Source of the DNA: Candidatus Aenigmatarchaeota archaeon
GTDB lineage: Archaea; Aenigmatarchaeota; Aenigmatarchaeia; GW2011-AR5
Assembly: GCA_016180925.1 (NCBI GenBank)
Contig: JACPAH010000001.1
Span: 1 to 42,274 of the forward strand
Reading direction: 5' to 3'
DNA length: 42,274 nucleotides
Positions 6,933 to 38,959 of the stretch are shown piece after piece. The notes below the pieces were generated by a model. That model saw nothing but the letters and a program-made list of their open reading frames with translations, was not told the origin of the DNA and did no database searches. Numbering within the stretch: position 1 is the first letter of the stretch; each line of letters begins with the position of its first letter. The position numbers and the translations under genes are program-made.

Positions 6933-7028
6933 TATAGTGCTCAAAGAAAAGATTTGAGTATTACTTTTCTTTGGCACTATATGTGAAGCCACAAAAACAT
7001 ATCGGGATTCTTTTGTGGGTTCACTATA
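6933..7028 (+). repeat. 96-nt twin-hairpin element, copy E1
   Basis: Two adjacent hairpins make up the element. The first pairs TATAGTGC-TCAAAGAAAAG with CTTTTCTTTG-GCACTATA around the loop ATTTGAGTATTA. The second pairs TGTGAAGCCACAAAA with TTTTGTGGGTTCACTATA around CATATCGGGATTC. The reverse complement of 31777-31872 matches it at 91 of 96 positions. A third copy of the same length (26926-27021) keeps the fold but changes stem bases in pairs. The rest of the 309-nt gap 6807-7115 shows only a small hairpin at 7036-7056 and AT-rich DNA. Confidence 0.85.
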
Positions 7029-7035
7029 ACATCCC

Positions 7036-7056
7036 AGAATGAACATCGTTCATTCT
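7036..7056. repeat. Perfect short inverted repeat upstream of sepF
   Basis: AGAATGAAC-ATC-GTTCATTCT is a perfect 9-bp palindrome. It lies just before an AGATTTAAATCT palindromic AT box (around 7059-7070) that could be the TATA region of sepF. It may be an operator or part of the adjacent twin-hairpin element. Confidence 0.5.
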
Positions 7057-7115
7057 GAAGATTTAAATCTTTCATGAGATATTAATAGAATATCTCCGGC
7101 AGAAGAGGTGCGCAT

Positions 7116-7600: not shown

Positions 7601-7700
7601 AAGTATTCTTAATGTCTGCAGGCTAAAGCCTGCAGTATGTTGAATACTTTGATCTCAAAGAGTATGGCTTAAAAGCTATAACATCCATACTCTTTGCAGA
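7601..7700 (+). repeat. 100-nt double-hairpin module upstream of the SWIB-like gene
   Basis: The first hairpin nests CTGCAGGC-TAAA-GCCTGCAG (7616-7635) inside AAGTATTC/GAATACTT (7601-7608 with 7642-7649). The second is CTCAAAGAGTATGG/CCATACTCTTTG, ending GCAGA at 7700, with GCTTAAAAGC in its loop. The two-hairpin, roughly 100-nt architecture and the CTCAAAG...CTTTG core echo the 96-nt E elements. It ends 24 nt before the ATG at 7724, directly at a GATAAAAAATC TATA-like box. The remaining part of the gap (7449-7600) shows no gene. Confidence 0.65.
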
Positions 7701-16769: not shown

Positions 16770-17381
16770 ATGACAGTAATAAAGGAAATCATGAAGGATA
16801 TCTGGTCCTGGCACCTTTACAACGACATAAAGGGGGTGGACTTCAACGGCTTCCTCGTCAAGACGGGTAAAAAAGAGTGGATAGCCATAGACCCTGCAAC
16901 ATTTACTGACCTCAACCACCTGAAGAAGTTCAAGCTCAGCGCTCTCCTGCTGACGAATGCCGACCACGCCCGCGACGCGAAGAAGTTCAGGGAATTCTTC
17001 CAGTGCAAAATACTTGTCAACGAGAAGGACGCGCCGCTCCTGGAGGACGTGAAAGCCGACGGGACGTTCAAGAACGGCGACGCCATACACGGGATGCGCG
17101 TCGTGGAAGTGCCGGACAACAAGACGCCGGGCGAGTCCGCCTTCCTGTGGGAAGAGCGCAGGATACTTTTTGTGGGCGACGCCGTCGTGGGAAAGCCCAT
17201 GTGGAAGCTCAATCTCCTTGCAGACGACAAGTACAAAGACGTGCAGAAAGCCAGGGAAGGAATAAAAGTCCTTTACAACCTGGACTACGGCACCATGCTG
17301 CTCGGCGACGGCGAGCACCCCAAGGACAAAGGAAAGGAATACCTAAAAGACTTCTTCACCAGGCATGGAATTCGGATTTAA
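16770..17381 (+). CDS. Metallo-beta-lactamase-fold protein lacking canonical metal ligands
   Basis: The 203-residue protein threads like an MBL domain: AIDPATFTDL (strand with the first Asp), LLLTNADHARDAKKF in place of the THxHxDH motif, VPDNKTPGESAF in place of HTPGH, FVGDAVVG for the GD motif, and GDGEHP near the end. The first two His of the motif are Asn and Asp, and the PGH His is Glu. Normal Zn chemistry is therefore unlikely, though a few alternative ligands (D, H, D) remain. It may bind a different metal or be non-catalytic. A TTATAAAC box sits upstream. Confidence 0.65.
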   Translation: MTVIKEIMKDIWSWHLYNDIKGVDFNGFLVKTGKKEWIAIDPATFTDLNHLKKFKLSALLLTNADHARDAKKFREFFQCKILVNEKDAPLLEDVKADGTFKNGDAIHGMRVVEVPDNKTPGESAFLWEERRILFVGDAVVGKPMWKLNLLADDKYKDVQKAREGIKVLYNLDYGTMLLGDGEHPKDKGKEYLKDFFTRHGIRI

Positions 17382-17433
17382 ATCGGCATTTTACCAAATG
17401 CCGATTAATCCGATTTTCTGCGAAAATCGGATT
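17381..17433 (+). terminator. Twin perfect hairpins after the MBL-fold gene
   Basis: AATCGGCATT/AATGCCGATT (17381-17406) is followed at once by AATCCGATTTTC/GAAAATCGGATT (17407-17433), then two more AAATCGGATTT-like repeats and an AT stretch. They directly follow the stop codon and could end transcription or stabilise the mRNA. The gap from here to 17795 holds no convincing gene, only the hairpin elements listed next. Confidence 0.5.
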
Positions 17434-17468
17434 TAAATCGGATTTAAATAGGTTTTCAGGATTGTAAT

Positions 17469-23998: not shown

Positions 23999-26902
23999 TC
24001 ATCCCTTCACATTGCCAATTGGAATTAACTTACATACCCTTTTTGATATTCCGGCTTTGTCTATAGCTCCTACTACTTCATCTATATCTTTATAACTGGC
24101 GCCTGCTTCCTCTGCGAGCCCGGGCATCGATGTGCTGCGGACGTATATACCGCGCTTGAGCATGTCCTTCTGCAACTGGTCTCCGCGGAACCTGCGTTTC
24201 GCTTCCGTGCGCGACATTGTGCGGCCGGAGCCGTGGGCAGTCGTGCCGAACGTGTTCTTCATGGCGCCGTCCGTGCCGACAAGCAGATATGAGCCTGTTT
24301 CCATTGAGCCGCCGATTATAACTGGCTGGCCGAAAGAGCGGTATTTATGGGGCACTTCATCCCTGCCGGGACCGAACGCCCTGGTAGCGCCCTTCCTATG
24401 CACCAAAACTTCTTTCTGCTTCCCGTTCACTTCGTGCTTCTCTATCTTCGCGGTGTTGTGGGCGACGTCGTATATCATTTCCATGTCCATGCTCTCGGCG
24501 CTGGAATTGAAGACCTTCGAGAAGCATTCGCGTATGCGGTGCAATATGACCTGGCGGTTGGCGAAAGACATGTTTATGCCGCACTGCATTGCCTTGAAGT
24601 AGTCCTGGCCTTCCTGGCTCTTGAATGGAGCGCATGCAAGCTCCTTGTCCAGAATCCTGATTTTGTACTTGCTTTCCATGACATTGAGAAACGTCTGAAG
24701 GTAATCAGTCGCGACCTGATGGCCGAATCCTCTGCTTCCGCAATTGCCTGTTACAAAGCCATCTGCTATAAAATTATGGTCGCTGTGGCTGACTGTGAAA
24801 TCAAAAACCCTGCCTCTGAAATCTTTCACTTCTTCCTTTGATTCTATATCATCCCAGATTACAGGTGTCGGAGGATTTAGTTTGTATTCGCTTCTAAATT
24901 CTTCAAATGTGGGATAATCAACAGACCTGAATTCGTATGGCGTTATAGACAGGCTTGACTGCAATTTATTTGTCAAGACGGCTTCATTTTCCAAAAGTCT
25001 CTGTTTTAGAGTAAGGTATTGAAGAGCGTAGCATGAAATGTTTATCCTGTCTTGGCAGTATTCAAATCCGACACGGGACCACAGTTTCTTCACGTTTTCT
25101 TCCTTGGATGAGAGTTTTAGCCTAAGCTTTGTCGTAGATTCGCCTTTCTTCGTCTTGACACCGGCATGTTCTGTTATTTTTACGGACTTTACTCCAAATC
25201 CTCCCAAGAGTTCAATTATCTGGTTCAAGAAAGTATAGCCACTTGCTTTCATTTTTTCTGTTTTGTTCACTGATATGCTGGGGTTTCCAAACCTGTATTT
25301 TTCTTCCTTTCTTACAAGAGGTCTTGTCATTTCAGCTCCAAAATATCCAGCCAGATACAGCCTTTTTATCCATAGAGGCGATTTGAATACCCATCCTGGG
25401 ACTTCAAAGTCTGAAGAATTCTTGCTTCCAGCAGGAGCTCCAAGGGCACGCATGAGCACAGGCAATGAAGTAGAACCGCAAACAATGGTATGAGTCTGAC
25501 CTTCTATCTTCCTTACCTCGTTGTTTGTATATGTGACTTCGCTTTTACAATCCTGGGAGTAGAATGATGTCTTGTACCCTAATTCTTGCAAATCCTTGCT
25601 TATGACAGCCAAATCTTCCGGCTTGCCTATGAATTTCATCACCCATCTGTCGCGGATTTTACCGTTAAGCGTATCCCGCGTTTTACCCAGCCATCCGTCT
25701 CCTGTCAAAAATCCTAATATTTTTGACAATATGGGTAGTTTTGTAGAATTGTATCGCAAAGGCAAAAGCTCCAGCTTTTTGAGATTATCTACAATTCTAT
25801 CGCTATTTTCTATCTTTCGTATGTCATCCTCACTTATAATTATATCATCTGAGGGTTCTTCATATTCAACACCTTCAAACGGCATTACAGCAACTTTATC
25901 CTTTACATCAAGTTCCTTCATCAATTTCAGGCCTTTTGGTGTTAAAACTGGATGGTCTTCGGTTGCAATTAGTTCCTTTCCGGTTTTTGTTTTTATCTTT
26001 AAAACCTTTCCGCATGGGTCAAGCTCAAAGAATTTTATTATGTCAGTATCTTCCACGTTATGCTTGTCAATATTCATACATTTGACATCAGTTTTAGCCC
26101 ATTTCTCTTTTAGCTTTTCAATTTCTATGGTATAGCCGTGTTTTGTCAGGATTCTGGAATTTCCAGGCAAGCAGTGAAACATAACAACGACCTGATTCGG
26201 GAATATGCCGAGCTTTTCGGCTATTTCCCTGTCAATTATGTTCTCTTCCCTGACGACCTGTATCTCAAGATAATGGTTGCCGGAACCGAGCGTGCCGATC
26301 TGGTTCAGCCCGCGCTTCACCGCGCGGTCGCTGACCTTCGACTGGTCGGCGCCTTTCATGCAACCGTCTTCCTCTATGAACTCAAGGTCCTTCTCCCATC
26401 CGTAGCCCTGCTCGACGCACCATTTCGCGCCGCCCATTATGGCTTCCCTGAACTTCTGGGCATTCAGCTTCACGAAGCCCTCGCTGCCGACTCCTGCCGG
26501 CACGCGCTGAAAAAGAAGGTCGACAAGCTCCTTCAGCTTCGGCTTCACGTCGTCATAAGTAAGATTCGTGCGCAAAAGCCGCATCCCGCAATTAATATCA
26601 AAACCAATCCCGCCAGGTGAAATGACGCCTTCCTCAAGGTCCATTGCTGCAACGCCGCCTATCGGAAATCCATACCCGGAATGACCGTCGGGCATGCAAT
26701 AGGCATGGTTTATGATGCCTGGAAGAGTTGCGACATTCGTGAGCTGGTCGTATACCTGCCTGTCCATCTGCTCCACGATGCTCTGGGTGCCGAATATGCG
26801 CCCAGGCACGCGCATCCCTTTCTTGAAGGATGCAGGTATTTCCCATACAGTGTCACTGATCTTCTGTATTCCATTTGGTATTGCCACTTTTTGTTCCTCC
26901 AT
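23999..26902 (-). CDS. rtcB: RtcB RNA ligase containing an in-frame intein
   Basis: From ATG 26902 the precursor has 967 residues. Removal of a 477-residue intein leaves a 490-residue RtcB of usual size. Extein motifs are DGHSGYGFPIGG, GFDINCG (metal Cys), GSGNHYLE, MFH/CGSRGFGHQ, and HGSGRTMSR near the guanylated His. RtcB joins 2',3'-cyclic phosphate and 5'-OH RNA ends, for example in tRNA splicing. The start was chosen because CTATAAAAG at 26930-26922 lies about 24 nt upstream. An in-frame ATG at 26938 lies inside the twin-hairpin element. Archease is encoded at 20527-20943. Confidence 0.95.
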   Translation of the reverse strand: MEEQKVAIPNGIQKISDTVWEIPASFKKGMRVPGRIFGTQSIVEQMDRQVYDQLTNVATLPGIINHAYCMPDGHSGYGFPIGGVAAMDLEEGVISPGGIGFDINCGMRLLRTNLTYDDVKPKLKELVDLLFQRVPAGVGSEGFVKLNAQKFREAIMGGAKWCVEQGYGWEKDLEFIEEDGCMKGADQSKVSDRAVKRGLNQIGTLGSGNHYLEIQVVREENIIDREIAEKLGIFPNQVVVMFHCLPGNSRILTKHGYTIEIEKLKEKWAKTDVKCMNIDKHNVEDTDIIKFFELDPCGKVLKIKTKTGKELIATEDHPVLTPKGLKLMKELDVKDKVAVMPFEGVEYEEPSDDIIISEDDIRKIENSDRIVDNLKKLELLPLRYNSTKLPILSKILGFLTGDGWLGKTRDTLNGKIRDRWVMKFIGKPEDLAVISKDLQELGYKTSFYSQDCKSEVTYTNNEVRKIEGQTHTIVCGSTSLPVLMRALGAPAGSKNSSDFEVPGWVFKSPLWIKRLYLAGYFGAEMTRPLVRKEEKYRFGNPSISVNKTEKMKASGYTFLNQIIELLGGFGVKSVKITEHAGVKTKKGESTTKLRLKLSSKEENVKKLWSRVGFEYCQDRINISCYALQYLTLKQRLLENEAVLTNKLQSSLSITPYEFRSVDYPTFEEFRSEYKLNPPTPVIWDDIESKEEVKDFRGRVFDFTVSHSDHNFIADGFVTGNCGSRGFGHQVATDYLQTFLNVMESKYKIRILDKELACAPFKSQEGQDYFKAMQCGINMSFANRQVILHRIRECFSKVFNSSAESMDMEMIYDVAHNTAKIEKHEVNGKQKEVLVHRKGATRAFGPGRDEVPHKYRSFGQPVIIGGSMETGSYLLVGTDGAMKNTFGTTAHGSGRTMSRTEAKRRFRGDQLQKDMLKRGIYVRSTSMPGLAEEAGASYKDIDEVVGAIDKAGISKRVCKLIPIGNVKG
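24743..26173 (-). mobile_element. Intein with LAGLIDADG homing endonuclease, in rtcB
   Basis: The 477-residue insert starts CLPGNSRILTKHG (block A, Cys1), has TEDHPVLTPKG (block B with the T-x-x-H motif), and ends SDHNFIADGFVTGN followed by Cys+1 of the extein. Two LAGLIDADG helices are visible, LGFLTGDGWL near residue 152 and YLAGYFGAE near 271, so it is a full-length homing intein. It interrupts FH|CGSRG, directly after the metal-binding His of RtcB. Splicing must occur for activity. Base composition is more AT-rich than the exteins, which suggests transfer. Confidence 0.93.
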
Positions 26903-26925
26903 TTTCACTTTGATGAAAAGTCTTT

Positions 26926-27021
26926 TATAGTCATGCAAAGAAACATTGGGGTATTAGTTTCTTTGCTGACTATATGTGAAGCAAATAAATAATCCGGATA
27001 TTATGTATCTGCTTCACTATA
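26926..27021 (+). repeat. 96-nt twin-hairpin element, copy E2
   Basis: It has the same length and fold as E1 and E3 but diverged stems. Hairpin 1 pairs TATAGTCA-GCAAAGAAAC with GTTTCTTTGC-TGACTATA around ATTGGGGTATTA. Hairpin 2 begins TGTGAAGC and ends GCTTCACTATA around AATCCGGAT. Stem changes relative to E1 are compensatory. Its left end forms the rtcB TATA box on the minus strand (CTATAAAAG). Its right end CACTATATATCC is 24-31 nt before the ATG at 27048. Confidence 0.8.
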
Positions 27022-27368: not shown

Positions 27369-28343
27369 ATGTATGTCATTCTTGGCGAGTCCCCCGAGCA
27401 GTTCTTCGGCGATTCGCTTGACGAGGCCATGAAGGCGTCAGTGAGTGAAAACCTGAGGGGATGGTCGCCTGAACTGAGGCCCGGGACAAACCTCTACCTT
27501 CCCCAGTACATAGTGGCGGGAAAATACTGCGACTCGGCGAGGGACGTGTGGTGGAAATACGTCAGGGAGGAGCCCATGAAAAGGACCAGGCCGCTGCTCA
27601 CCGGAGGGCTTTACCACAAACTGATTTCAGAAATAATTCAGGAGGCGAAGAAGTACATATACAACAGCGGCATGGAGCCCGGGTTCGACATATCGAAGCA
27701 CCTTTCGTCAATAATGGAGGCCGTCATAAACAGCATCTTCGAGCAGGAGAAAGGCGACGTCATCAACCTCCTCAGGGTCAGCGACATAAACGAGATAAAG
27801 GACAACATGAGGAAGATGTGGAACTACCAGGCCGTCCAGATATCGGCATCGGTCAACATGGTACTTTCGAAATTCACCACGATAGACACCGACGCCCTCG
27901 TGTCCAAGGCCATACCGATAAACGTCGAGCAGAGGCTTGACGGCTCCAGGATAGGGCTGAGCAGGCAGCTTTCAGTGGACGCCATGCAGGTCCCCCACGC
28001 CGTCATAATGGACATAAAGACAGGGAAGCCCCGCCATTTCCACAAGCTTACGGTCACGGGATATGCGATGGCCTACGAGAGCGAGTTCAGGCAGCCCGCG
28101 AACATGGGATGTATAATATATCCCCAGTTTATGGAGGGCAAGAGCGTCCCGTACATAGAGAAGAGGTTCTACGTCATAGACGACTCCGCCAGGAAGGAAT
28201 TCATAGAGGAAAGGGACAGGAAAATGCGCATAATACTTGAAGGGAAGGACCCAGGGCTGGCAACGCACTGCCCCGACTCCTGCGGGTACTTCGCCAGGTG
28301 CCATCCCAGCGGGAAGGACGAGAGGGTCAAGGCCGACCAATAG
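27369..28343 (+). CDS. Csa1/Cas4-like Fe-S exonuclease, orphan
   Basis: The 324-residue protein follows the Csa1 (Cas4-related) plan: a first Cys, C54 in GKYCDSARDVWW; a PD-(D/E)XK core with DIKTGK (D215, K217) and a fhKLTVTGYAMAYES helix; then three cysteines, C301, C305 and C311, in CPDSCGYFARC. Together these four Cys would hold a 4Fe-4S cluster. Csa1/Cas4 proteins process DNA ends for CRISPR spacer integration. No CRISPR array or other cas gene is in the window, so it may be a free-standing repair nuclease. Confidence 0.8.
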   Translation: MYVILGESPEQFFGDSLDEAMKASVSENLRGWSPELRPGTNLYLPQYIVAGKYCDSARDVWWKYVREEPMKRTRPLLTGGLYHKLISEIIQEAKKYIYNSGMEPGFDISKHLSSIMEAVINSIFEQEKGDVINLLRVSDINEIKDNMRKMWNYQAVQISASVNMVLSKFTTIDTDALVSKAIPINVEQRLDGSRIGLSRQLSVDAMQVPHAVIMDIKTGKPRHFHKLTVTGYAMAYESEFRQPANMGCIIYPQFMEGKSVPYIEKRFYVIDDSARKEFIEERDRKMRIILEGKDPGLATHCPDSCGYFARCHPSGKDERVKADQ

Positions 28344-31776: not shown

Positions 31777-31872
31777 TATAGTGAACCCACAAAATAATCC
31801 CGATATGTTTTTGTGGATTCACATATAGTGCCAAAGAAAAGTAATACCTGAATCTTTTCTTTGAGCACTATA
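31777..31872 (-). repeat. 96-nt twin-hairpin element, copy E3
   Basis: The reverse complement matches E1 (6933-7028) at 91 of 96 positions. Differences are three in the first loop (CAG for TGA), one at GAATCC for GAAGCC and one near the second loop. Most differences fall in loops or tolerated pairs. The downstream end GCACTATAAATACC supplies a near-consensus TATA box (about 31869-31876) ahead of the gene at 31903. Confidence 0.85.
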
Positions 31873-38469: not shown

Positions 38470-38877
38470 ATGGACCTTGCCAAGAATTTCCCGAGAAGCC
38501 CATACGACATGCTGGCCGGAGTCGTCATGCTGCCGCGAACGATAGACAAGGCCAGGGCCTTTAACGGAGGGACGCTTGGAGAATACCACTACAACTGCCC
38601 CCTCGACCAAAAAGTTCTCCAGTTCTTCGGCGTGAACCACGAGGCCTTCGCCCAGAAACTGAAGGAGCTCCAGACGGATGAGAAGATGGCCGGGTGGCTC
38701 GGGGGGACGAAGAGCCGCGAGGAAAAGGACAAGTTCAACAACAGCATGAGGCATCTTGAGCCTGACACCCCTGAAAAAAAGCAGTGGCTCGCGGAGCAGA
38801 TAAAGCTCCACTGCAGGCAGGTCAGGACCTACTTCGACAACCTCGACGCCGACGAGAAGAGGTTCTATACTGAATGA
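38470..38877 (+). CDS. DUF5069 family protein
   Basis: The 135-residue protein matches DUF5069 at its start: DLAKNFPRSPYDMLAGVVML, PRTIDKARA, GTLGEYHYNCPLD and QFFGVNHEAF. Members are small soluble proteins of unknown role. The last residues (RFYTE) and the stop codon lie inside the E4 inverted-repeat element, which also encodes the end of pyrC on the other strand. Confidence 0.82.
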   Translation: MDLAKNFPRSPYDMLAGVVMLPRTIDKARAFNGGTLGEYHYNCPLDQKVLQFFGVNHEAFAQKLKELQTDEKMAGWLGGTKSREEKDKFNNSMRHLEPDTPEKKQWLAEQIKLHCRQVRTYFDNLDADEKRFYTE

Positions 38878-38959
38878 CATAATTTATTGAACATTATAAT
38901 AATGTCATTCAGATATACCAAAGACATTATTTGTACAAAAATTAATGTCTTTGAGTATA
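38866..38959 (-). repeat. Diverged 94-nt twin-hairpin element, copy E4
   Basis: Two AT-rich hairpins lie back to back: CTGAATGACAT/ATGTCATTCAG and CCAAAGACATTA/TAATGTCTTTGAG, framed by TATA at both ends as in E1-E3. On the minus strand it begins TATACTCAAAGA...TCTTTGGTATA, similar to TATAGTGCTCAAAGA...TCTTTGGCACTATA. It overlaps the 3' ends of two convergent genes, DUF5069 (stop 38875-38877) and pyrC (stop 38944-38942), and may act as a two-way terminator. Confidence 0.65.

Follow-up and report, generated by a model that had tools for sequence, protein, structure and literature searches.

The twin-hairpin repeats in this aenigmatarchaeal DNA are copies of a non-autonomous mobile element (MITE), and not of an RNA gene. 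The repeat is short, multicopy, and noncoding, it has terminal inverted repeats, and its insertions carry a target-site duplication for which clean empty sites are found. Insertion is at TA, and the TA is duplicated, as in the IS630/Tc1-mariner class.

The window, i.e. the whole stretch of 42 274 nucleotides that was analyzed, contains three full copies of exactly 96 nt, as the original prediction had stated: E1 (6933–7028, + strand), E2 (26926–27021, +), and E3 (31777–31872, −). In E1, the TA target duplication is at 6933–6934 and 7027–7028, so the element proper is 6935–7026. Hairpin 1 (6933–6981, +) has a stem of 18 bp, with an unpaired T at 6941 and GTATTA in the loop. Hairpin 2 (6978–7028, +) has the stem GTGAA...TTCAC and ATATCGGGATT in its loop, and its first TATA is common to hairpin 1. 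Five mismatches in 96 positions separate E1 from the reverse complement of E3, giving the predicted identity of 91/96, and the compensatory changes described for E2 (GTGC/GCAC vs GTCA/TGAC) are correct, as are its loop motifs. The termini of all three are TATAGT...ACTATA. The two-hairpin fold of E1 has a predicted energy of −36.9 kcal·mol−1, with z = −7.4 relative to folded shuffles; z is also −7.4 for E2, and across the copies it ranges from about −7 to about −9; none of the shuffled sequences folds equally well. E4 (38866–38959), which has 94 nt and the ends TATAC...GTATA, was originally counted as a fourth copy of the same family. It does have the same two-hairpin plan (z = −9.0), but its sequence is different and it has no match to the E1 covariance model in the scan of its own genome, so it belongs to a sibling lineage.

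Some neighboring features of the window may be recorded here. More perfect short hairpins, together with AAATCGGATTTAAATCGG palindromic repeats, are found in intergenic DNA at 7035–7057 and 17369–17445. E2 is on the 5′ side of an intein-containing RtcB RNA ligase gene (23999–26938, −), and a CRISPR-associated exonuclease, Csa1 (Pfam, 209 bits), is encoded at 27369–28343 (+) in this small DPANN genome.

The genome of the window, 0.84 Mb, gives 21 matches to E1 by blastn. A covariance search of the genome and its relatives, as proposed in the original prediction, turned up many further copies. With a model built from 13 copies, the own genome shows 13 strong full-length hits and about a dozen expanded copies; the element is 94–98 nt long and has no coding capacity. 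The E1 model matches 21 of 59 genomes, consisting of 17 of the 19 in the same family, the window's genome counted, and four in two other families of the order, with no match elsewhere in the class among the 59 genomes searched. Some genomes have 50–69 matches, 69 being the highest number in a relative, although these counts may be inflated by opposite-strand matches to one copy. When about 85 000 prokaryote species were scanned for a pattern of the element, 69 stretches were returned, all titled Candidatus Aenigmatarchaeota. The same pattern had no matches in viral contigs, and phages gave only chance matches of 20 nt. The E4 lineage has copies of its own, with matches in 13 of 30 genomes, and the E4 copy of the window is 98% identical to one in another genus (G004:C1:72815–72907), which suggests either recent horizontal spread or very strong constraint. 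The elements are numerous in genomes of about 1 Mb.

Mobility is seen directly in an orthologous pair of sites with flanks that are 98% identical. Genome G009 has a single TA (...GGCTGT-T-TA-ACACTT...), while G014 has TA-element-TA (...GGCTGG-T-TA-[TAGTC...CACTA]-TA-ACACTT...), so that the empty and filled sites differ by exactly one element and one TA duplication. A paralogous empty site is present in the window's own genome, where a second hairpin repeat is uninterrupted at 7656–7696 of the window (GCTTT-TA-AGCC) and contains an expanded element at L096 12197–12343. G005 offers further paralogous pairs, as its elements are inserted into one another, again with TA duplicated. The insertion target is T-TA-A: 57 of 93 insertions are in TTAA and 18 of 93 in TTAT, and the other flanking positions show no preference. 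Furthermore, three identical copies occur at unrelated loci across two species, and copies are found in both orientations (E1 on the + strand, E3 on the −). L058 was considered as a clean empty site and rejected, as another element adjoins it. Since the element contains no gene, it must be moved in trans.

The second hairpin repeat is the longer of the two, CAAAGAGTATGG...CCATACTCTTTG, with GCAGAT outside one arm. It is multicopy in the own genome and hosts twin-hairpin insertions; besides 7656–7696 of the window, the repeat is seen at L096 12174 and 12344, L097 17320, L104 482–507, L105 10014, L108 14875–14902, and L110 13905–13930. In the expanded copies of the twin-hairpin element, about a dozen in the own genome, hairpins 1 and 2 are separated by a module of about 51 nt, CTGC-hairpin-GAG-hairpin-GAGCAT (L096 12197–12343 and L097 17161–17308, and in L025, L026, L029, L030, L033, and L034). 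In G005 and G030, either a loop or the hairpin junction contains a comparable module, TACAAG-hairpin-CTGTACAG-hairpin-CTTGTA (L140 16556–16658, L123 93–195, L196 4296), apparently with TA on both sides. At L074 1231–1380 and 1471–1929, a copy in G018 has about 55 nt, including the hairpin CACGACTTTAGTCGTG, in the loop of hairpin 1; near this copy is a Y1 transposase gene whose end hairpin looks similar.

The pairing of both hairpins is retained across genera while the sequence changes. Over 83 distinct rows, 97.0% of cells are paired, and two-sided changes are seen at 19 pairs, with 372 two-sided cells compared with 112 in shuffles; these counts are not probabilities, because alignment to the model biases the rows toward the structure and because the rows are kin by descent. 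When the partner is slid by 1–3 columns, pairing falls below 48%. This covariation, which the original prediction had emphasized, matches that of an RNA gene in strength, and together with the conserved loops and the intergenic location in the window it is what a functional RNA would show, or a pair of RNA hairpins serving as a terminator or processing site that has become multicopy by duplication. We nevertheless consider an RNA very unlikely. Exact TA insertion into intact sites, the nesting of copies, and the occurrence of E1 and E3 in both orientations relative to genes, in unrelated flanks, are all against it. G-T makes up 0.8% of element pairs, whereas G-U is 9.5% in 33 tRNAs of the same DNA, and no Rfam family matches at its gathering score in the window, with chance-level scores only around E1. 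The near absence of G-T points to Watson–Crick complementarity in DNA, or to a hairpin required on either strand. Since an RNA hairpin required on either strand would likewise avoid G-U, the element may have a secondary RNA effect, for example as a two-way terminator. Of the two options originally offered, functional RNA or single-strand DNA hairpins of a non-autonomous mobile unit, it is the mobile unit that stands. The element is thus also a warning that covariation alone is not proof of a functional RNA.

What keeps the arms of a mobile element complementary? The arms of hairpin 1 are 97% identical to each other, but identity is only 61% between the outer arms of hairpins 1 and 2, which have low mutual information. 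Hairpins 1 and 2 therefore drift largely independently, with the arms within hairpin 1 matched, and a shared double-stranded binding site alone is insufficient. Template switching that corrects quasi-palindromes could maintain the arms in a MITE for which folding has no function, and would also yield Watson–Crick pairs only and few broken pairs. However, copies that are 1–3 differences apart have 10 one-sided and no two-sided stem changes, though these numbers are small and come from sequence pairs that are not independent; two-sided changes appear only with distance. Such a pattern is more readily explained by selection through spread than by instant correction. Moreover, the bulged T described below is left uncorrected in 72 of 76 copies, and we regard template switching as the sole cause as unlikely. 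Because covariation is accompanied by one-sided changes only among the closest copies, pairing seems instead to be filtered through the spread of the copies.

The bulged T, which is absent from the original description, is at position 9 of hairpin 1 (T9), where it is unpaired in 72 of 76 distinct copies and flanked by freely varying pairs. The outer ends of the element share a common register, TATAG(T/C)NN(T/A)NCAARNAAA, with 61% identity over positions 5–18. T9 gives both ends the equal spacing TATAG(T/C)NN(T/A)N-CAA-RN-AAA, and without it they would be out of register. The simplest reading is that T9 would set the register for the transposase.

A conserved bulged T, hairpins at both ends, and Watson–Crick-only covariation could also suggest an IS200/IS605- or REP-type single-stranded DNA element, whose hairpins would be recognized by a Y1 (HUH) transposase, and Y1 genes are present in some relatives. 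This is highly improbable, and the single-strand hairpins originally offered are not supported in the IS200/IS605 sense. No Y1 gene (PF01797) is found in the own genome, nor is there a hit in G000, G001, G005, G015, or G030, all rich in the element, whereas Y1 genes are present in genomes that lack it; Y1 transposase was thus rejected as the mover. The hairpin starts at the terminal base, which leaves no space for a guide sequence between the cleavage site and the hairpin. Furthermore, IS200/IS605 insertion is without target-site duplication, while here the filled site has TA on both sides and the empty site has one TA, though these two bases could be a target-site mimic. The covariation is nevertheless consistent with a requirement for folded ends.

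Which transposase, then, moves the element? An IS630 transposon (NCBIfam transpos_IS630, 227 bits) is multicopy in G020, a genome of the same order; its left end is TATAGATAACTGCGAAACTTGGATGACG and its right end TATAGATAACTGCATAAGTTACATGACATA, the latter flanked differently in two copies. Both ends recur, one per side, in a 94-nt twin-hairpin element of G005, at 24/30 and 28/30 bases, compared with at most 21/30 for shuffled queries. The sister lineage with these ends (TATAGATAACTGC...) is therefore very probably an IS630 MITE, judged from end similarity; it shares the TATA boundary with the transposon, which differs in encoding the transposase. Beyond TATAG, the ends of the transposon and of the E1 lineage differ in sequence; we infer the same class for the E1 lineage from what is shared, namely the plan, the TATAG ends, and the target. 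No IS630 or other transposase bordered by E1-type ends turned up in the own genome (81% complete) or in 156 genomes of the phylum. There is no DDE_3 hit in G005 (90% complete), the genome with the most matches, and the IS630 copies of G003, G012, and G021 have no TATAG-type ends. The presence of DDE_3 (PF13358)/IS630 was rejected as a tracker, as it does not follow the element, though the ends tie the two in a sister lineage. Other candidates were also set aside. Ends lacking a partner arm, considered as parts of an autonomous long form of E1, are truncated, mutated, or contain short hairpin modules. The repeated ORFs of G005 that were read resemble, on inspection, cellular genes or antisense frames, and they gave no support for composite transposons formed from inverted copy pairs about 2 kb apart. 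Frames of a second type of IS630 in G020 are interrupted by TATAG-ended elements (L119 1692–1829, L122 about 528–750).

We suggest that the element is probably a MITE moved in trans, most likely by an IS630-type transposase, with pairing kept through the spread of fold-capable copies. The mover would be an IS630 (Tc1/mariner-type) DDE transposase with the outer terminal repeats as its substrate; this assignment comes from end homology for the sister lineage and is made by extension for the E1 lineage. Each terminal repeat has its own reverse complement behind it, so each end can form a hairpin. Copies with unpaired arms would leave no new copies, so pairing would be held as the sequence drifts. 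Folding would likely serve to present the ends as hairpins or as a cruciform, for example during replication. To our knowledge, no Tc1/mariner element requires folded ends, so the standard mechanism leaves the constraint on the inner arms unexplained. A bolder form of the proposal, which we put forward tentatively as a possibility and no more, is a Tc1/mariner-type element that spreads only if each end folds into its own hairpin, in single-stranded DNA or as a cruciform, combining folded-DNA recognition with TA insertion in a DPANN lineage. The family makes the need of a TA-inserting element for folded ends directly testable.

As far as we have searched, this mobile-element family of DPANN archaea is undescribed in the literature, and no known repeat family matched it in the resources searched. 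The family itself is real and well supported. Its general kind, a MITE, is known, and its twin fold-back design is unusual and under clear constraint. End hairpins with a bulged base are shared with IS200/IS605 and REP/BIME elements, but the twin-hairpin element has no Y1 association and no guide sequence, and duplicates TA. It resembles the Correia/NEMIS repeats of Neisseria in its TATAGTG ends, TA target duplication, and size of about 100 bp. A Correia sequence was checked by search, and at least 40 places in Neisseria gonorrhoeae match it at 98%. When only the ends are compared, the best agreement with the twin-hairpin element is 17/20; 29 of 2000 shuffles do as well or better, as do about 10% with TATAGTG fixed. 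With TATAGTG fixed, the similarity is not significant and does not establish common ancestry. The ends of Correia/NEMIS pair with each other, whereas those of the twin-hairpin element each pair with themselves. Correia/NEMIS repeats have forms of 107 and 155 bp, the long one with a 50-bp internal module (PMC2229807), and our expanded copies are a parallel of design to these two forms, with no homology implied. RUP of Streptococcus pneumoniae, derived from IS630-Spn1, is about 107 bp and targets TA, and an IS630 transposase has been proposed as its mover from shared ends (PMC2229807); we liken it by description, and twin fold-back ends are not reported for it. CIR repeats of Caulobacter and Brucella are about 110 bp, with two hairpin arms, a linker, and TA at the termini (PMC2229807). 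CIR has a conserved GANTC site and its mobility is unclear, whereas the twin-hairpin element inserts with TA duplication. By analogy of design, the closest analogues can be taken to be the Correia/NEMIS, RUP, and CIR repeats.
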